This document shows, in pieces, positions 12,138 to 23,624 of a stretch of DNA of 62,090 nt. The stretch's first letter is position 1. Every line of letters starts with the position of its first letter. The position numbers were made by a program, and so were the translations under genes. This stretch comes from a virus: positions 1 through 62,090 of IMG/VR virus record IMGVR_UViG_3300021138_000028. One strand, given 5' to 3'. The notes below the pieces were generated by a model that saw nothing but the letters and a program-made list of their open reading frames with translations, was not told the DNA's origin and made no database searches.

Positions 12138-12773
12138 ATGGCTCTATATGACAACTTACCGGACGAGACCCCGGCACAGAAGCGACCAAAGGGATTGACC
12201 GACCAAGAATGGATGCTTGTTGTTGAGTATTCGGCTTGCAAAAATAAGCGTCGTGCGCTAGATAAGGCGGGGTATCCCAAACACGCTTTGCATATTTTAG
12301 AACAACCTCACATTCGGATTGCTATTGCCGCTGAGGTCAAGAGCCAGATTTCTAGGGCTCGAAAGACGGCTGATGAAGTCATTAAGGCTTGCGAAGACGT
12401 GGTGTTCTCGGACATTGAGGATTTGATCTTTGTCGACGCTGAGGGCAAGATTCGATTGAAGCCATTGGACGAGATTCCTGACGATAAGAAGGCATTGATC
12501 CAAGGTTTGATTATTCGCAGGGATGGTTCGATTGACCTAAAGATCCCAGAGAAAGCGGTGATGATGCGGCTACTGATGACGGCACATGGGCTGCTTACGG
12601 ATCGTGTTGAACACGTTACCGAAGATAATGTGCTCCATAAGATGTATGCCGTCGCTATGGCTCGGAATGGGATCAGTGAATCGGTTGCAGGTTCGATCAT
12701 TATTGATGTTCAGAGGCAGATTGAACTTATGCCTCGAGCAACCAAGAATATGACACCAAAGGAAGATGAGTAA
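12138..12773 (+). CDS. terS: Terminase small subunit
   Basis: 211 aa. It fits the Terminase_2-type small subunit. An N-terminal helix-turn-helix region (EWMLVVEYSACKNKRRALDKAGYPK, read in two parts) has the typical A-x-x-x-AGY element. A long helical section then leads to DIEDLIFVDAEGKIRLKPL and the L-K-P-L-D-E-I-P segment seen in this family. The small subunit recognises packaging sites in phage DNA and regulates the large subunit. It overlaps the next gene by eight bases, as expected for terS-terL. Confidence 0.8.
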   Translation: MALYDNLPDETPAQKRPKGLTDQEWMLVVEYSACKNKRRALDKAGYPKHALHILEQPHIRIAIAAEVKSQISRARKTADEVIKACEDVVFSDIEDLIFVDAEGKIRLKPLDEIPDDKKALIQGLIIRRDGSIDLKIPEKAVMMRLLMTAHGLLTDRVEHVTEDNVLHKMYAVAMARNGISESVAGSIIIDVQRQIELMPRATKNMTPKEDE

Positions 12774-13566
12774 GACCAACTTACCTATTCGATCCATGCG
12801 GGAAACCGTTGCGATCAAGAATATCACGAAGGATGCTATGGCGGCATTCCGATCAGCCCAATCTCCATCGGAGCGTCCGATGTGGCCTGATGAGTACATG
12901 GGCGATGATCCAGAATCAGCATTTAGGTTCGTAACTGAATGCTGGTGGACGGACAATGAAGCAGACAGGAAGATTGAACTGATTCCTAAGCGGGAATTTG
13001 TTTATGACTTCTGTGTGGAATGGGTGAATGCCTATCGACTTCGACAACCTATGATCTGCGAGAAGTCTCGACGTATCACGATTTCGTGGATATGCCGGGG
13101 ACTTGAAACTTGGGTCATGGGAAAGCAACGTGGATCGTGGATTATCATTGACCAAACTCATAAGAACGCTGCCGAACATCTGTGGCGAATTGATTTCTCG
13201 CTGAATCAGTTAAAGAACAGGAAGCCTGAGTACAACATTGAGTTCGAAACTCGTGGATCGGTTTTGATAAAGGAGCCGACGAACATCATTCTCGGAAATG
13301 GTTCGATGATTACGCAAGGTCACCAAGATGCAGGATCAGCACAAGGTAAAGGTAAGACGGGTGTTACACTTGAAGAGGTTTCAAAGTATGCGAACCCTAG
13401 TGAGTTTTGGGGACAAGCATTGATCGTTACTCAAGGTTCTGGTGAAGGGTCTGGTGGTTGGGTCTGTGGCATTGCCAATGCTTCTCCCAACGCTGACTGG
13501 CTCAAGATCAAGCATAACATGAGGGCTAGAGCCTTCCTTGGGATAGATGATAAGGATTGGATCTAA
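12766..13566 (+). CDS. Terminase large subunit, ATPase part (split terL)
   Basis: 266 aa covering the ATPase half of a phage large terminase. A P-loop-like element CEKSRRITISW lies near residues 97-107, with an Arg/Lys-rich loop in place of a classic GKT as in many terminases. The Walker B with catalytic Glu is GVTLEEVS near residues 198-205. The coupling motif region is GIANASPNADW. The frame ends at TAA 13564-13566, overlapping the ATG of the nuclease gene (TAATG). The usual single protein is 450-600 aa; the two parts add to 556 aa. Confidence 0.85.
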   Translation: MSKTNLPIRSMRETVAIKNITKDAMAAFRSAQSPSERPMWPDEYMGDDPESAFRFVTECWWTDNEADRKIELIPKREFVYDFCVEWVNAYRLRQPMICEKSRRITISWICRGLETWVMGKQRGSWIIIDQTHKNAAEHLWRIDFSLNQLKNRKPEYNIEFETRGSVLIKEPTNIILGNGSMITQGHQDAGSAQGKGKTGVTLEEVSKYANPSEFWGQALIVTQGSGEGSGGWVCGIANASPNADWLKIKHNMRARAFLGIDDKDWI

Positions 13567-14438
13567 TGGCGCATCCTGGTCATCCAGTTAAGGGTACCGA
13601 TCTTGCCGATGGGACTCGATATGTGGCTATTCATTTCTCTGCCGATTCGACCAAAGGGCAGGAATGGGAGCAAAAGAAAGCTCGTGGTATTCCCGAAAGA
13701 TCGTGGAAACGTGAAATGGGGATGCACGATGATGTCTATGAAGGAGAACCCGTATTCTCCGATTACTCGGACGTTAGGCATTGTCCTTTCAGTATTCGTG
13801 AGACAGGTATTCCGATCTTTCCCAACTCGGTCTATATCGGTGGTTGGGATAATGGGCTCACTCCTGCCTTTACGCTACTTCAAATTACGCCACTATTCCA
13901 AGTCCAGTGTATTTTGGAGGTTACGTCGGGTGGTGATGATCCGATGGAAACGTTTGCGCCAAAGGTTCTCAATGCTATCGCTAGAAGAATCCCCGGCGCA
14001 TGGGACGAGGTTTACCATATTGGTGATCCGTCGATCTGGAACAGGACTGCAACGACGGGTGATAGTCCTGGACTATTAGCCAAGCGGAAATTTGGGATCA
14101 ACATTCGACGGGCAAGTAACGTTTGGGGCGTCAGACAGTCTGCCGTGACATGGCTTTTGACCGATCAGATTGATCCGAAGACTGAACGATTTATTCTTGA
14201 TGCCAAACATTGTCCAATTTTGAGAATTGGTTTCCAAGGCGCATATCAATTTGAAATTTCGCCTCGTGGAGATACGATTGGACCGGGGCGTATTCTTATG
14301 GAACCATTGAAAAATGGCTACTCACACGTACATGACGGGCTCCAAGCAGCAGCACAAGCGGCTAGAAAGTTCTGCGAGGGCAAATTAGCTCTCGGGATGG
14401 GCCTTCATCATGATACAATGCCAAAACGATGGCACTAA
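13566..14438 (+). CDS. Terminase large subunit, nuclease part (split terL)
   Basis: 290 aa from ATG 13566 (TTG 13557 is an alternative). It has the RNase H-like nuclease layout of terminases: first acidic residue in GGWDNGLTPAF (~93), second in HIGDPSIW (~153), third in SHVHDGLQAAAQ (~256). This domain cuts the concatemer at the start and end of packaging. A stop at 13551-13553 in this frame and the absence of a slippery heptamer argue against ribosomal frameshifting. Termination-reinitiation giving two polypeptides is more likely. Confidence 0.85.
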   Translation: MAHPGHPVKGTDLADGTRYVAIHFSADSTKGQEWEQKKARGIPERSWKREMGMHDDVYEGEPVFSDYSDVRHCPFSIRETGIPIFPNSVYIGGWDNGLTPAFTLLQITPLFQVQCILEVTSGGDDPMETFAPKVLNAIARRIPGAWDEVYHIGDPSIWNRTATTGDSPGLLAKRKFGINIRRASNVWGVRQSAVTWLLTDQIDPKTERFILDAKHCPILRIGFQGAYQFEISPRGDTIGPGRILMEPLKNGYSHVHDGLQAAAQAARKFCEGKLALGMGLHHDTMPKRWH

Positions 14439-15373
14439 TTGACCAAAAAGTTCCTCAAGACATCGTAGATAGAGCGATTGCGAAAGCTCGCAACGTATTT
14501 ACGTGTCCTCATTGTGGCGCACCAAAAGGACAGCAATGTCGAAACGTCGGGTTAGACGATATTCATGATGTTCGGATGCCAAAAGGGATTGGATTTGCCG
14601 ATTTCCTTGACCTTGAAGCTAATTCTCCCAAGCTAGAGCAGATTGCACCTATGCTATTCGCTAAGAGGCTTGAAACGGTTAGGGTTCCCAAGCAGATTAC
14701 TCGTGGAGATATTGATTACAAGACTGCATCTGAGTCCGTAAGGGTTTTGGATGGTCGAATTCTTGTTGAAATGCTTCCTTCTGCGAAGCGATCTATTTTG
14801 ATTCCAGAATCAGTGGAGAGTAAACTAAGACCTCACCTTGGAGTCGTGTTGCAGTCGATGGAATACGCGACCCCGCGATGCGGAACTTACGTTTATCCTC
14901 CCAATCCGGGAACGATTGTGATTGTCAGGAGAACGGACGGTACTTGGATTACTGATGCTTACATGGGTGGCTATCAACCTCAAAATGAGGTTCGAGTTTA
15001 CGGTGTATATGGTGAGTTTCGGGGTCATCCTCAGATTTATGACTGGTGGGATTCTGTTCTTGCATCATATAATGAAGATATGGCTGCATGGGTACCCTAT
15101 GGGGATAAGATCCTCTTTCGACGTGATGCAAGTTTTGAAACAAGCGAAGGTGGGATTTATCTCCCTAATGGCTCACACCGTAGAACGGCAGAAGCAACTG
15201 TTGTTGCTGTCGGGCCGCTGGAAATGGATGTGAAGGTTGGCGATCGTGTTTGCTATGATCCATTCCATATTGAGCAGGTTGGCATTGAAGTCGACGGTGA
15301 AGTAGACATTGATCTTTTGATCGGTAGCCAACTTTCGATCAACTATGTGATCCCTGAGAAGGTGGTGGCATGA
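14429..15373 (+). CDS. Zinc-finger protein with two GroES-like domains
   Basis: 314 aa. Residues 26-49 hold C-P-H-C ... C ... H (Cys26, Cys29, Cys37, His46), a short zinc finger like those at the N-terminus of some phage proteins. Residues ~222-309 match GroES/Cpn10 closely: PYGDKILFRRD, then SEGGIYLPNGS (the mobile-loop region), then EATVVAVGPLE, VKVGDRVCYDP and a closing hydrophobic strand. Residues ~105-175 look like a second, more diverged GroES fold (VLDGRILVEMLPSAKRSILIP ... LGVVLQS ... GTIVIVRR). The protein might help host GroEL fold capsid proteins, as T4 gp31 does, or be a virion component. It overlaps terL and is translationally coupled to the next gene. Confidence 0.7.
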   Translation: MALIDQKVPQDIVDRAIAKARNVFTCPHCGAPKGQQCRNVGLDDIHDVRMPKGIGFADFLDLEANSPKLEQIAPMLFAKRLETVRVPKQITRGDIDYKTASESVRVLDGRILVEMLPSAKRSILIPESVESKLRPHLGVVLQSMEYATPRCGTYVYPPNPGTIVIVRRTDGTWITDAYMGGYQPQNEVRVYGVYGEFRGHPQIYDWWDSVLASYNEDMAAWVPYGDKILFRRDASFETSEGGIYLPNGSHRRTAEATVVAVGPLEMDVKVGDRVCYDPFHIEQVGIEVDGEVDIDLLIGSQLSINYVIPEKVVA

Positions 15374-15713: not shown

Positions 15714-17180
15714 ATGGCATTAGTTGAACTCTCAGACGACATGAAGGGCAAGATCGGAAGGAAACTTCTGATGTATGTCGACGCAGGGCTCAACGCTATG
15801 GGCAGAATGCCTCAATGGTGGCTTGATGTTGAAAGGCAATACCGGAATGAAAATCCTGGCTTGAACCAAGGGCCTGATGGACAGAATAAGGGATACGATG
15901 AATTCCATATACCTTTGACTCAACCAAGGCTTGATATGCTTACGGCTCAAGTCACCACCGTTATTGGCAAGCAGAACCCGTACATGACGGACATGACCGA
16001 TCCAGAAGCTATCAGTGAACCCAAACAGCAATTGGTTCACTCGATATGGAAGGATGCTGGATTTGAAACCAAGATCCGTGATGCGGCAACAATTGTAGGA
16101 TGTACTGATGTTGCGTTCTATCGGCTATGCCCGAATTATGCCCAACGTGGCGCGGTAGACCTTGATGTTATTCACCCTGACTCGATGATCGTCTACCCTG
16201 CTTTGCCGAAAGGAATTCAAGCAGCGACTTGTGTTGGTCATAGGCTTGAAATGCGTCGATACTTAATTGAGTCGATGCAGGATGGAAAGACCTACTATAA
16301 AGGTGATCCTCCTACAACTTCATCTCAAGATGAGCATGATGCTGACCGTGAGCAAATGCACACTGGCGCAAATCTTGGTGATCTTGCTCCTGATGATGCT
16401 ACGGAACTTTGCGAGATTTGGCCTTTGGTCGTTCGGCTTGACCTAAAGCATATTGAAGATCCTTATACCAAGGAAAGAAACGAACGACTTTACCAAGCGA
16501 CGTTGGATTATAAGTCTGGTCGGCTCCTTCGACTTGAAGAGTATGACTTCGACTATATTTGGTATTTCAGGTCGCAGTACATTGGCTCACCACGCTATTT
16601 CTATTCTGGACAGTCAGTAGGTAGGAACCTTTATCCTGTTCAGGATATGTATAACTCCTTGTGGTCTGGATTCTTTGCTGGTGCCATGCAAGCGGCCTCG
16701 GGTGGTCCGGTAATTGGAGAAGGATTAACTTCTGGTGAGAAGTATCAGAAGTTTGGAATGACGACGGTTATTGAGTCTGATTCCCCTGTGACTCCGTGGC
16801 AAGGTTCAGTTCATTTTGACGGACAACCTTTCCCCCGTATGATTGCTTCTTGTGAAGAGATAGCAGATAAGATTGCTCGTATCTCTCAGAACACTCAGGG
16901 AGCGCAAGCACAAGGATCAACGACAGCTACGGAACAGTCGATCATCGCGGCTGGTGTTGCTGTTGGTATCGAACAGTTTATCGCTCGATTCTCTCAAGAC
17001 TTTCCTGCTATGGCGGCATTGACTTGCCAGATAGCCGCATCGGATTTTGAAGGGTTCTCTCAGAGGTATGGTCAGGATATTGTGATTCCTGATGATCTTG
17101 GAGGACCAGATTTAACCAACTTAGTTGGAAGCAACGTGGACGTATCACCTAACATCGTGGAGGCTCCAATTGGACAATAA
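15714..17180 (+). CDS. Portal protein
   Basis: 488 aa. The portal forms the dodecameric ring through which DNA enters and leaves the head. Supporting features are position after terminase and before scaffold and capsid genes, usual length, and family-like segments: PQWWLDVERQYRNENPG at the N-terminus, a wing/stem region with RLDMLTAQVTTVIGKQNPYM, and YNSLWSGFFAGAMQAASGGPVIGEG with a long acidic helix before GAQAQGSTTATEQSI. It ends NIVEAPIGQ. The helical crown normally found after this point seems to lie in the next reading frame (17170-17700). Confidence 0.8.
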   Translation: MALVELSDDMKGKIGRKLLMYVDAGLNAMGRMPQWWLDVERQYRNENPGLNQGPDGQNKGYDEFHIPLTQPRLDMLTAQVTTVIGKQNPYMTDMTDPEAISEPKQQLVHSIWKDAGFETKIRDAATIVGCTDVAFYRLCPNYAQRGAVDLDVIHPDSMIVYPALPKGIQAATCVGHRLEMRRYLIESMQDGKTYYKGDPPTTSSQDEHDADREQMHTGANLGDLAPDDATELCEIWPLVVRLDLKHIEDPYTKERNERLYQATLDYKSGRLLRLEEYDFDYIWYFRSQYIGSPRYFYSGQSVGRNLYPVQDMYNSLWSGFFAGAMQAASGGPVIGEGLTSGEKYQKFGMTTVIESDSPVTPWQGSVHFDGQPFPRMIASCEEIADKIARISQNTQGAQAQGSTTATEQSIIAAGVAVGIEQFIARFSQDFPAMAALTCQIAASDFEGFSQRYGQDIVIPDDLGGPDLTNLVGSNVDVSPNIVEAPIGQ

Positions 17181-17700
17181 CACTCCTGCTCCGATTGAGC
17201 AAGCGTCAAGAACACTGTCCTTGCAAAAGACAGACCTATTGACTCATGTGAATTGGGAACCGACAGGTAAGAGCCCTGGTAATACGCCACAAGCCAAGTT
17301 GCAAGCGGCACAAATGTTCTTGCAGATGTTGGCTAATCCGTCGATTGCTCAATATATTAACCTACCTGCCCTGCTTACGATCATCCTAAAGGATGGTCCG
17401 TTGCAGAATGCTACCAATGTGTTGAAGTCTCAGCAAGAGGTTCAACAAATGGCGCAACAGCAACAGCAAGCGCAAATGGCTCAAATGCAAGCGCAACAAG
17501 GACCACCTAATGACCAATCTCAGCCGACAACAGCACCAGCTATTGATTCAGGGGCAGTTCCCGGACCTCCAGCGTCTCAAGGAGTTCCTGATGGGACCGG
17601 AATGGGAAGTATGTCAGGCGTACCTAATGCACCACCTATCAATAGCGGAATCCCGATGCCTGGATCTGGACCCGATTTCCCAGGCGTCATCCATCGCTAG
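17170..17700 (+). CDS. Portal C-terminal-like protein (split portal tail)
   Basis: 176 aa from TTG 17170, six bases after a GGAGG site and overlapping the portal stop by 11 bases. The first ~90 residues (KLQAAQMFLQMLANPSIAQY ... NLPALLTIILKD) resemble the helical C-terminal part of portal proteins. The rest is Gln-rich (QQEVQQMAQQQQQ) and then Pro/Gly-rich and probably disordered. It may be a separate subunit-like tail of the portal. Its last 191 bases are shared with the next gene in another frame. Confidence 0.65.
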   Translation: MDNNTPAPIEQASRTLSLQKTDLLTHVNWEPTGKSPGNTPQAKLQAAQMFLQMLANPSIAQYINLPALLTIILKDGPLQNATNVLKSQQEVQQMAQQQQQAQMAQMQAQQGPPNDQSQPTTAPAIDSGAVPGPPASQGVPDGTGMGSMSGVPNAPPINSGIPMPGSGPDFPGVIHR

Positions 17701-19514: not shown

Positions 19515-20429
19515 ATGGCTATTCTCGTACCTACACTCGCACTTGCGAGAAAGAACATTCTTGAAGTGTTCGTTGTCGAAGCTGATAAGCTCGAAAAGCA
19601 ATGGGACTTTGTTGTCGGAAAGGAATTCGACACAACTCAGGCTTTTGAAGTCTTTAAGCAGATCAAGCCATTGAGCCCTGCACAGCAGACGCCAGAAGGT
19701 CAGACTGTTGCTTACGATGATCTTGCTCAGATTTACACTCAGGCTTTCTATCCTGTCATGTTCACGAAAGGCTTGAAGTATTCAAAGCTATTTGCTTTCA
19801 CACTTCAATATCAGGACGTAATGAACAAGCAGGATCAGTTTGCTCGTGCGTTCACTCAGAAGAAGAACATCGTTGCGGCGAATATCAACAACCTTGGCTT
19901 CACGTCAACCACCTACGGTATGAACTCAGAGACTTTGTACTCGACGGCTCATAGCCAAGGTGCAGGTAACCCGACGTTCTCTAACCGTCCTGCCGCTGAA
20001 CTTCCGTTCGGGCCTCTTGCTCTTGAGCAGGGCCTTCAAGAACTTCGCGCACAGATCGATCCGGTTGGACAGCCAATGATGCTCACTGGTAAGGTGTTGC
20101 TTACTGTTCCGATTCAGAAGCAGGGTGTTGCTACTCGTGTCGTGAATTCGTTGAAGCTGGCAACCACGAACAACAACGACGTTAATACGTTCATCAAGGA
20201 TCGTATTGACTTTGAAGTTATCGACTACTACACCAGCTCAAACGCTTGGTTCCTTCGTATGCAGAAGGCTGGTGTCGGTGGACATGGACTGTTCATGTTG
20301 AACCAGATGCCATACGACATGGAACAGCTTGCTCGTGACGATGCCCTTATGGACAAGTGGGTCGGTTCCGAGTCTTACACTGTCGGTTGGAAGGATGCTC
20401 ACGGTTCTTGGGGAACCCTCGGGCAGTAA
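19515..20429 (+). CDS. Major capsid protein (HK97-fold candidate)
   Basis: 304 aa. Follows scaffold and decoration genes and has the expected size. An N-terminal arm with helix (ALARKNILEVFVVEADKLEKQWDF, read in parts) is followed by a central PLALEQGLQELRAQIDPVGQPMML and a LLTVPIQKQGVATRVVNS strand-helix. The C-terminus has DRIDFEVIDYYTSSNAWFLRM, similar to HK97-like/Mu gpT-like capsid proteins where a beta segment before 'WFL' closes the axial domain. No protease domain or cleavage site is evident. A ribosome site for the next gene (GGAG) lies right after its stop. Confidence 0.8.
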   Translation: MAILVPTLALARKNILEVFVVEADKLEKQWDFVVGKEFDTTQAFEVFKQIKPLSPAQQTPEGQTVAYDDLAQIYTQAFYPVMFTKGLKYSKLFAFTLQYQDVMNKQDQFARAFTQKKNIVAANINNLGFTSTTYGMNSETLYSTAHSQGAGNPTFSNRPAAELPFGPLALEQGLQELRAQIDPVGQPMMLTGKVLLTVPIQKQGVATRVVNSLKLATTNNNDVNTFIKDRIDFEVIDYYTSSNAWFLRMQKAGVGGHGLFMLNQMPYDMEQLARDDALMDKWVGSESYTVGWKDAHGSWGTLGQ

Positions 20430-22708: not shown

Positions 22709-22977
22709 CGTACTTCCCTGCTTTCTCGAATGCTCCCCAAGGAACTTATCAAGCTCCTGCGGCAATGGCGGCATTATTCACGACGATGATCTTTACCTAC
22801 GTTCCTGACTCGGTAATCGTGAATACGCTTGATGTTGTTCCGAATTATGATGAGACAGGGGGTATCTGCCAACGAACAGGAAAGTGGTATGGTTCATCCC
22901 AATTAGTGAAAGACGGAACTGGACGAATAGTGGGTTCGGATCATGCTCTTGATGGAGGAAATAATTGGCTTTTCTAG
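22705..22977 (+). CDS. Small structural-block protein, 90 aa
   Basis: A GTG start at 22705 overlaps the previous TGA (GTGA). MTYFPAFSNAPQGTYQAPAAM... is not recognised. The overlaps on both sides indicate a real gene between two virion genes. Composition is aromatic and Gly-rich towards the end. Confidence 0.55.
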   Translation: MTYFPAFSNAPQGTYQAPAAMAALFTTMIFTYVPDSVIVNTLDVVPNYDETGGICQRTGKWYGSSQLVKDGTGRIVGSDHALDGGNNWLF

Positions 22978-23624
22978 TCAGTGATGTAACCGCTCAAGTT
23001 CGGCTTCACATGAGCGACTTTCCTTTGGACACCGATCCAGTGGCTTTGTCTATCGTAAATCTAGCATACAGTGACATCGTAGCAAAGGTCCGTCTTTATC
23101 CGACTTCGGCATTAACGATTTATCCAATTGCCAACCAACAAGAGTACACGCTACCTTCTTCAATCGTGCGTATCTGGTCAGCGAGATGGTGGACAAGTTC
23201 TACGACATCTATTCCAATCATGGAAACGTCAATTGACGAACTCGATTACGAGAATCCAGTATGGCGATCGGTCTCACCAAGCAATCAGCCATATAAATAC
23301 TACGAAGATGGAGGACAACTTGGATTCTTCCCGGCTCCAAGTACAACGGTAGCTTCAGGCTACCCTTGCGTGATTCTTCAAACTACGCTTTTTACTCCTT
23401 ACGCTACGATTTCCGATCCCCTTCCAACATATCTATTGAACGTTGATGCTTGGGTATGGGGAGTGTGCGCTCGATGGTCAGCGATGCAACACCATGATTC
23501 GGCAGATTACTTTGCGAATCTTGCTCTTAATGCTCGTGCTGAACTTATTGCATCCAGAAACAACTTGCTTGTCAGACAAAAGCCAATGGTGAAGGCTTCC
23601 TATAACGGTCCTCGTAATAGGTAA
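22965..23624 (+). CDS. Head-tail adaptor-like protein
   Basis: 219 aa, TTG start at 22965 with a GGAGGAA site four bases upstream. It fits podovirus adaptors (T7 gp11/P22 gp4-type): an N-terminal helix region (VTAQVRLHMSDFPLD), a LPSSIVRIWSARWW strand, an ETSIDELDYENPVWRS segment, a LGFFPAP strand, then helices with YFANLALNARAELIASRN. The adaptor joins portal and tail nozzle. It is followed by a large nozzle-like gene, as expected. Confidence 0.7.
   Translation: MAFLVSDVTAQVRLHMSDFPLDTDPVALSIVNLAYSDIVAKVRLYPTSALTIYPIANQQEYTLPSSIVRIWSARWWTSSTTSIPIMETSIDELDYENPVWRSVSPSNQPYKYYEDGGQLGFFPAPSTTVASGYPCVILQTTLFTPYATISDPLPTYLLNVDAWVWGVCARWSAMQHHDSADYFANLALNARAELIASRNNLLVRQKPMVKASYNGPRNR

Follow-up and report, generated by a model that had tools for sequence, protein, structure and literature searches.

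The question raised by this locus is what a GroES-like protein with a zinc finger, encoded between terminase and portal genes, does for a virus of bacteria. The window, i.e., the whole stretch of 62,090 nucleotides that was analysed (a 62-kb virus contig from IMG/VR), holds one unbroken open reading frame at 14429–15373 (+) which, according to the ORF listing and translation, codes for 314 amino acids and, as translation and profile search indicate, is built of a zinc finger, a middle region and a C-terminal GroES domain. The product was filed as a GroES-domain protein, a probable co-chaperonin as judged from its sequence, and this lake virus of bacteria appears to carry its own lid for the protein-folding machine of the host. 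The 5′ end of the gene overlaps the terminase nuclease ORF, which ends at 14438, and downstream of the gene come a 70-aa ORF and then the portal from 15714, so the placement between terminase and portal given in the preliminary description holds. The 70-aa ORF has no detectable kinship to the small ORFs found beside GroES in relatives. In a second IMG/VR contig, 99.4% identical over 14 kb, the 314-aa protein is identical and the sole base difference within the gene is synonymous; given how little the two sequences differ, the second contig backs the assembly and not selection. This near-identical contig was the one found, among the matches listed, by IMG/VR pattern scans for the protein, the terminase, the portal and a terminase DNA motif, scans that used short degenerate peptides and that relatives at 40–60% identity may have escaped. 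A search of genome contigs for relatives yielded at first none and then a bacterial GroES alone.

The C-terminal ~95 residues of the protein are a true GroES/Cpn10 domain (residues ~219–308; 15083–15352, +), as recognized by Pfam, hhalign, AlphaFold2 and Foldseek. Pfam Cpn10 matches residues 223–286 (E=1.2e-12, 48.1 bits, cut-off 21.1), the PHROG co-chaperonin GroES profile matches the same domain with E=1.5e-9, and hhalign against a 17-sequence GroES alignment gives E=4e-12, so the GroES domain noticed earlier at the C terminus is upheld. The mobile loop retains its GG-hydrophobic tripeptide (EGGIYLP, residues 240–246, with the GGIYL motif), and the roof hairpin known from bacterial GroES is lacking, the stretch from VGP to VKVGD being 8 residues shorter in the alignment than in the GroES of L004. 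AlphaFold2 modelled the full-length protein poorly (mean pLDDT 42), and uninformatively outside the C-terminal domain; within the C-terminal domain five blocks reach pLDDT 66–78, others lie lower, and the strands are mostly at 56–78 from residue 251 on. All top Foldseek matches of the C-terminal model are Cpn10/GroES with probability 1.00, T4 gp31 (1g31) standing at rank 13 (E=0.013, 18% identity), with the reservation that the AlphaFold2 input alignment held GroES rows and the fold match is therefore not fully independent of the sequence match. The model thus places a GroES β-barrel in the C-terminal part with moderate confidence, and of the structural check proposed beforehand for two segments, the C-terminal one fell on Cpn10, whereas the middle one gave nothing meaningful.

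A possible client of such a protein is encoded downstream. The ORF at 19515–20429 (+), the major capsid protein by hhalign and family HMM and the probable folding client, was compared with the capsid proteins of nine GroES-carrying phage loci and aligned over 274 columns (hhalign probability 99.3, E=7e-21), while 16 other proteins of the window gave no match in the same comparison. Related IMG/VR loci were collected by capsid match alone and not by GroES; they are the best-scoring 80 of each of two scans, among the matches listed, and hence a sample and not a family count. In all 96 of the testable loci, i.e., those with at least 2.9 kb of sequence upstream of the capsid gene, a GroES gene lies 1.8–2.9 kb upstream of that gene, and in 81/81 sampled loci with a portal found the portal precedes it. 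In annotated GroES-carrying phages the order is terminase, portal, at least one small ORF, GroES, three ORFs and capsid, with terminase or portal unlabelled in some of the records. GroES genes as such are known from many phages. Head-module GroES is also present in HTVC023P, DSL-LC04, Pag-Yong1, CRP-901, Caulobacter phage RW and Alcaligenes phage QDWS535, and for HTVC023P-type phages GroES was described as a core gene (PMC9599517). Head-module GroES is therefore ordinary in this capsid group, and what is unusual in the window protein is the N-terminal fusion and the gene position before the portal. The location, called unusual in the preliminary description, is so only in the latter respect. 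The 105 GroES proteins of the sampled relatives (31 clusters at 60% identity, many of the loci being closely related) are all single-domain and 97–181 aa long, and none of the 105 has a second GroES match or a finger of the C-C-C-H/C type.

Yet GroES is not found throughout the wider kinship of this capsid protein. It is absent from the examined region in three remoter capsid relatives (L179, L180 and L181), namely vir526 (Methanomicrobiales), Manatee Spring ct7ZZ929 and a faecal scaffold, which score 134.1, 127.9 and 73 bits on the capsid family HMM. The window capsid scores 97.9 bits, below two of these GroES-less relatives, so a need for GroES does not follow from capsid homology alone, and by its sequence score the window capsid falls in a zone where GroES is not universal. 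In the capsid tree the window is weakly nearest to GroES carriers, on a very long branch. As far as the literature was searched, the core status of GroES was known for HTVC023P-type phages, and the wider capsid group and its GroES-less boundary are new. A capsid group that keeps GroES beside its capsid genes makes the need for a dedicated GroEL lid directly testable, which matters more than the single protein. The GroES-less relatives, of which vir526 was assigned to a methanogen host, are useful controls for the need of the capsid for GroEL.

The best explanation of these data, and one that we regard as likely by sequence and by analogy, is that the protein is a phage co-chaperonin which, in the manner of T4 gp31, would close host GroEL so that head proteins can fold, the capsid protein probably among them; capsid folding was already a leading idea of the preliminary description, and both the GroES domain and the link of the capsid group to GroES speak for it. 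A ring formed by the C-terminal GroES domain would close host GroEL by way of its mobile loop (ETSEGGIYLPNG), and head proteins would fold in the cage, the major capsid protein being the most likely one. As in the T4 gp31 model, host GroES would give way on GroEL to the phage lid, which would allow the capsid protein to fold. Host GroEL would be used, because no Cpn60/GroEL gene is present within the window. For capsid folding a tested precedent exists in T4 gp31 (PMC3012670), which is likewise devoid of roof loops and has a wider opening as a result (PMC6318259). The simplest guess for the zinc finger and the middle region is that, as additions to the lid, they lie outside the open dome or on top of it, and that these N-terminal parts may serve to choose or retain the substrate or a further head component. 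The GroES chain starts at the lower outer side of the barrel, so a long N-terminal extension would more likely lie outside the cage than inside. The co-chaperonin reading is favoured by the GroES domain detected by Pfam, PHROGs, hhalign and Foldseek with the GGIYL motif kept, and by a capsid homologous to those of phages with head-module GroES, the gene being present in every testable sampled locus. Against it stand the two GroES-less relatives that are nearer to the capsid HMM than the window, the divergence of the GroES domain, and a 215-residue N-terminal part that would be borne by each of seven subunits, for which 0/105 relatives offer a precedent.

A further question is where the gene came from. 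It may be the GroES gene of the capsid group, moved and extended, or a separate acquisition, as far as sequences can tell. That a bacterial-type GroES was acquired independently and replaced the capsid-group gene, rather than that this gene was moved, is given slightly less than an even chance. The window GroES domain scores 39.6 bits on a bacterial-inclusive profile against 13.9 on the family-only profile, its highest identities are to bacterial GroES, and the free GroES trees set it outside the clade of the capsid group, although on a very long branch, and the AU test did not reject joining it to that clade (p=0.27 and 0.25). Such an acquisition concerns origin and is compatible with co-chaperonin function. 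The GroES matches H1, H3 and H5 were rejected as phage genes, since they lie on bacterial groES-groEL contigs labelled phage; L004, L005 and L006 (MT837166, MT836164 and Acinetobacter phage MD-2021a contigs) have groES-groEL of the usual bacterial kind, which gives them the look of contaminating bacterial DNA. Phage-labelled contigs of this kind served as bacterial references only.

It was also proposed that a second, weaker GroES-like segment precedes the first, in a layout resembling plant Cpn20. The protein would then be a tandem co-chaperonin with two GroES domains per chain and a zinc finger, the first domain being degenerate, which we consider unlikely. The middle region (residues ~104–204; 14738–15040, +), a possible degenerate GroES domain by weak collinear alignment, gave no family match in the Pfam profile search. 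It aligns collinearly with the whole GroES domain over 64–89 columns, RILVEML corresponding to the first strand and ILIPES, with its hydrophobic ILI, to the place of the mobile loop, followed by LGVVLQS and NPGTIVIVRR. Against GroES HMMs it scores 0–3.6 bits, and among 20,000 shuffles the respective score was reached by 84 with the broad model (P 0.004), by 247 with a smaller mixed model (P 0.012) and by 1315 with the family-only model (P 0.07), values weakened by the choice of the segment from the earlier claim and by the several models and segment limits tried. hhalign gives P ~0.01, but a probability of 4–5%, and on the first model 11 other segments of the window equal or exceed its score. 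For the middle segment alone AlphaFold2 returned a mean pLDDT of 37 and no usable fold, and Foldseek nothing meaningful. Cpn20 shows that the layout is workable (PMC5780408), yet no tandem was seen among the 105 relatives, and for two GroES domains in one chain there is a weak collinear match (P 0.004–0.07) beside an uninformative model. The second GroES-like segment was not confirmed, and a Cpn20-like barrel in its place is putative.

The N-terminal zinc finger, also noticed at the outset, was recovered by the PF24623 (Phage_zn_bind_8) profile at residues 21–49 (14489–14575, +) as C-x2-C-x7-C-x8-H (C26, C29, C37 and H46), in a single borderline match (E=1.3e-5; 25.3 bits, cut-off 24). Among the 8072 ORFs of the loci examined, none was found to be homologous to the N-terminal 215 residues, to the finger alone or to the middle region alone. 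In the open-access papers searched, no description of a phage GroES with a zinc finger was found, and we know of no other co-chaperonin with an N-terminal one; if working as a co-chaperonin, the protein would be the first and would indicate to what extent a GroEL lid can be lengthened. The description of PF24623 as putative DNA-binding suggests a different role, in which a structural or packaging protein, e.g., a component of the head or connector whose finger contacts DNA, would reuse the GroES fold independently of GroEL. The gene lies directly after the terminase and before the portal, where all sampled relatives with a portal have GroES after it, and the very long branch of the domain would agree with such a change. 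However, the GGI(Y)L motif for GroEL binding is preserved, the domain shows no obvious decay, the same capsid group carries ordinary GroES in the head module, and the window holds no GroES other than this protein, which makes the structural role improbable. The least probable proposal is that of a zinc-finger tandem co-chaperonin with one degenerate domain, in which a metal-binding module over the open dome would bring a component of the head or of packaging to GroEL.

Compared with known systems, the predicted co-chaperonin is closest in setting to HTVC023P-type and related phages, with which it shares the GroES domain, a head-module gene, a homologous capsid and an SU10-type portal and adaptor. 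In these phages (HTVC023P, DSL-LC04, Pag-Yong1, CRP-901, RW and QDWS535) GroES is single-domain, 97–181 aa long, devoid of a zinc finger and encoded between portal and capsid gene, whereas the window gene, of 314 aa, stands before the portal; placement of its GroES outside the HTVC023P-type clade is favoured and not significant. T4 gp31 and RB49 CocO are likewise phage co-chaperonins without a roof loop, and the window protein has a Foldseek match to 1g31, but they are single domains of ~100–110 aa without a zinc finger, at 18% identity (Foldseek). Chloroplast and apicoplast Cpn20 is a long co-chaperonin too, and Chlamydomonas Cpn20 is the best PDB sequence match of the 314-aa protein; tandem co-chaperonins exist in chloroplasts (PMC5780408), with two demonstrated GroES domains and no zinc finger, unlike the window protein, for which one GroES domain is shown. 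Helicobacter pylori HspA is a GroES with an added metal-binding part as well (PMC3856676), which is a His/Cys-rich C-terminal nickel-binding tail and not an N-terminal C-C-C-H finger.

Some features of the neighbouring genes deserve mention. The large terminase subunit (12766–14438) seems split into an ATPase ORF at 12766–13566 (+; phrog_2 terminase large subunit, E=5.3e-5) and a separate putative nuclease ORF at 13557–14438 (+), joined by a TAATG stop-start overlap; the latter gave no family match in Pfam and PHROG searches and was assigned by position and by a GWDNG motif seen by eye. Two-CDS annotation of the large terminase also occurs in Manatee Spring ct2G2228 (L024) and Caulobacter phage RW (L020). 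The portal (15714–17700) appears split over two frames: the main SU10-type part (15714–17180, +; PF23899, SU10_portal, E=1.4e-8) stops at TAA, and an overlapping ORF in the +1 frame (17125–17700) matches the C-terminal end of portal/adaptor families (phrog_449, E=6.5e-5). The two contigs show no indel in this region, and a programmed frameshift, two genes or a shared assembly error may each account for the split. The SU10-type head-tail adaptor lies at 22965–23624 (+; PF24175, E=8.2e-15).

Chaperonin-related genes were also met in other phages. In an unrelated IMG/VR phage (L014:41-3260) terminase and portal are directly followed by a 117-aa GroES, which suggests that head-module GroES occurs outside this capsid group as well. 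In Bacteroides phage DAC16 (L007:3989-5888) a GroES-like protein is followed by a full GroEL/Cpn60 (E=3.7e-73), both annotated as hypothetical, and the same GroES match is found in five sister phages.
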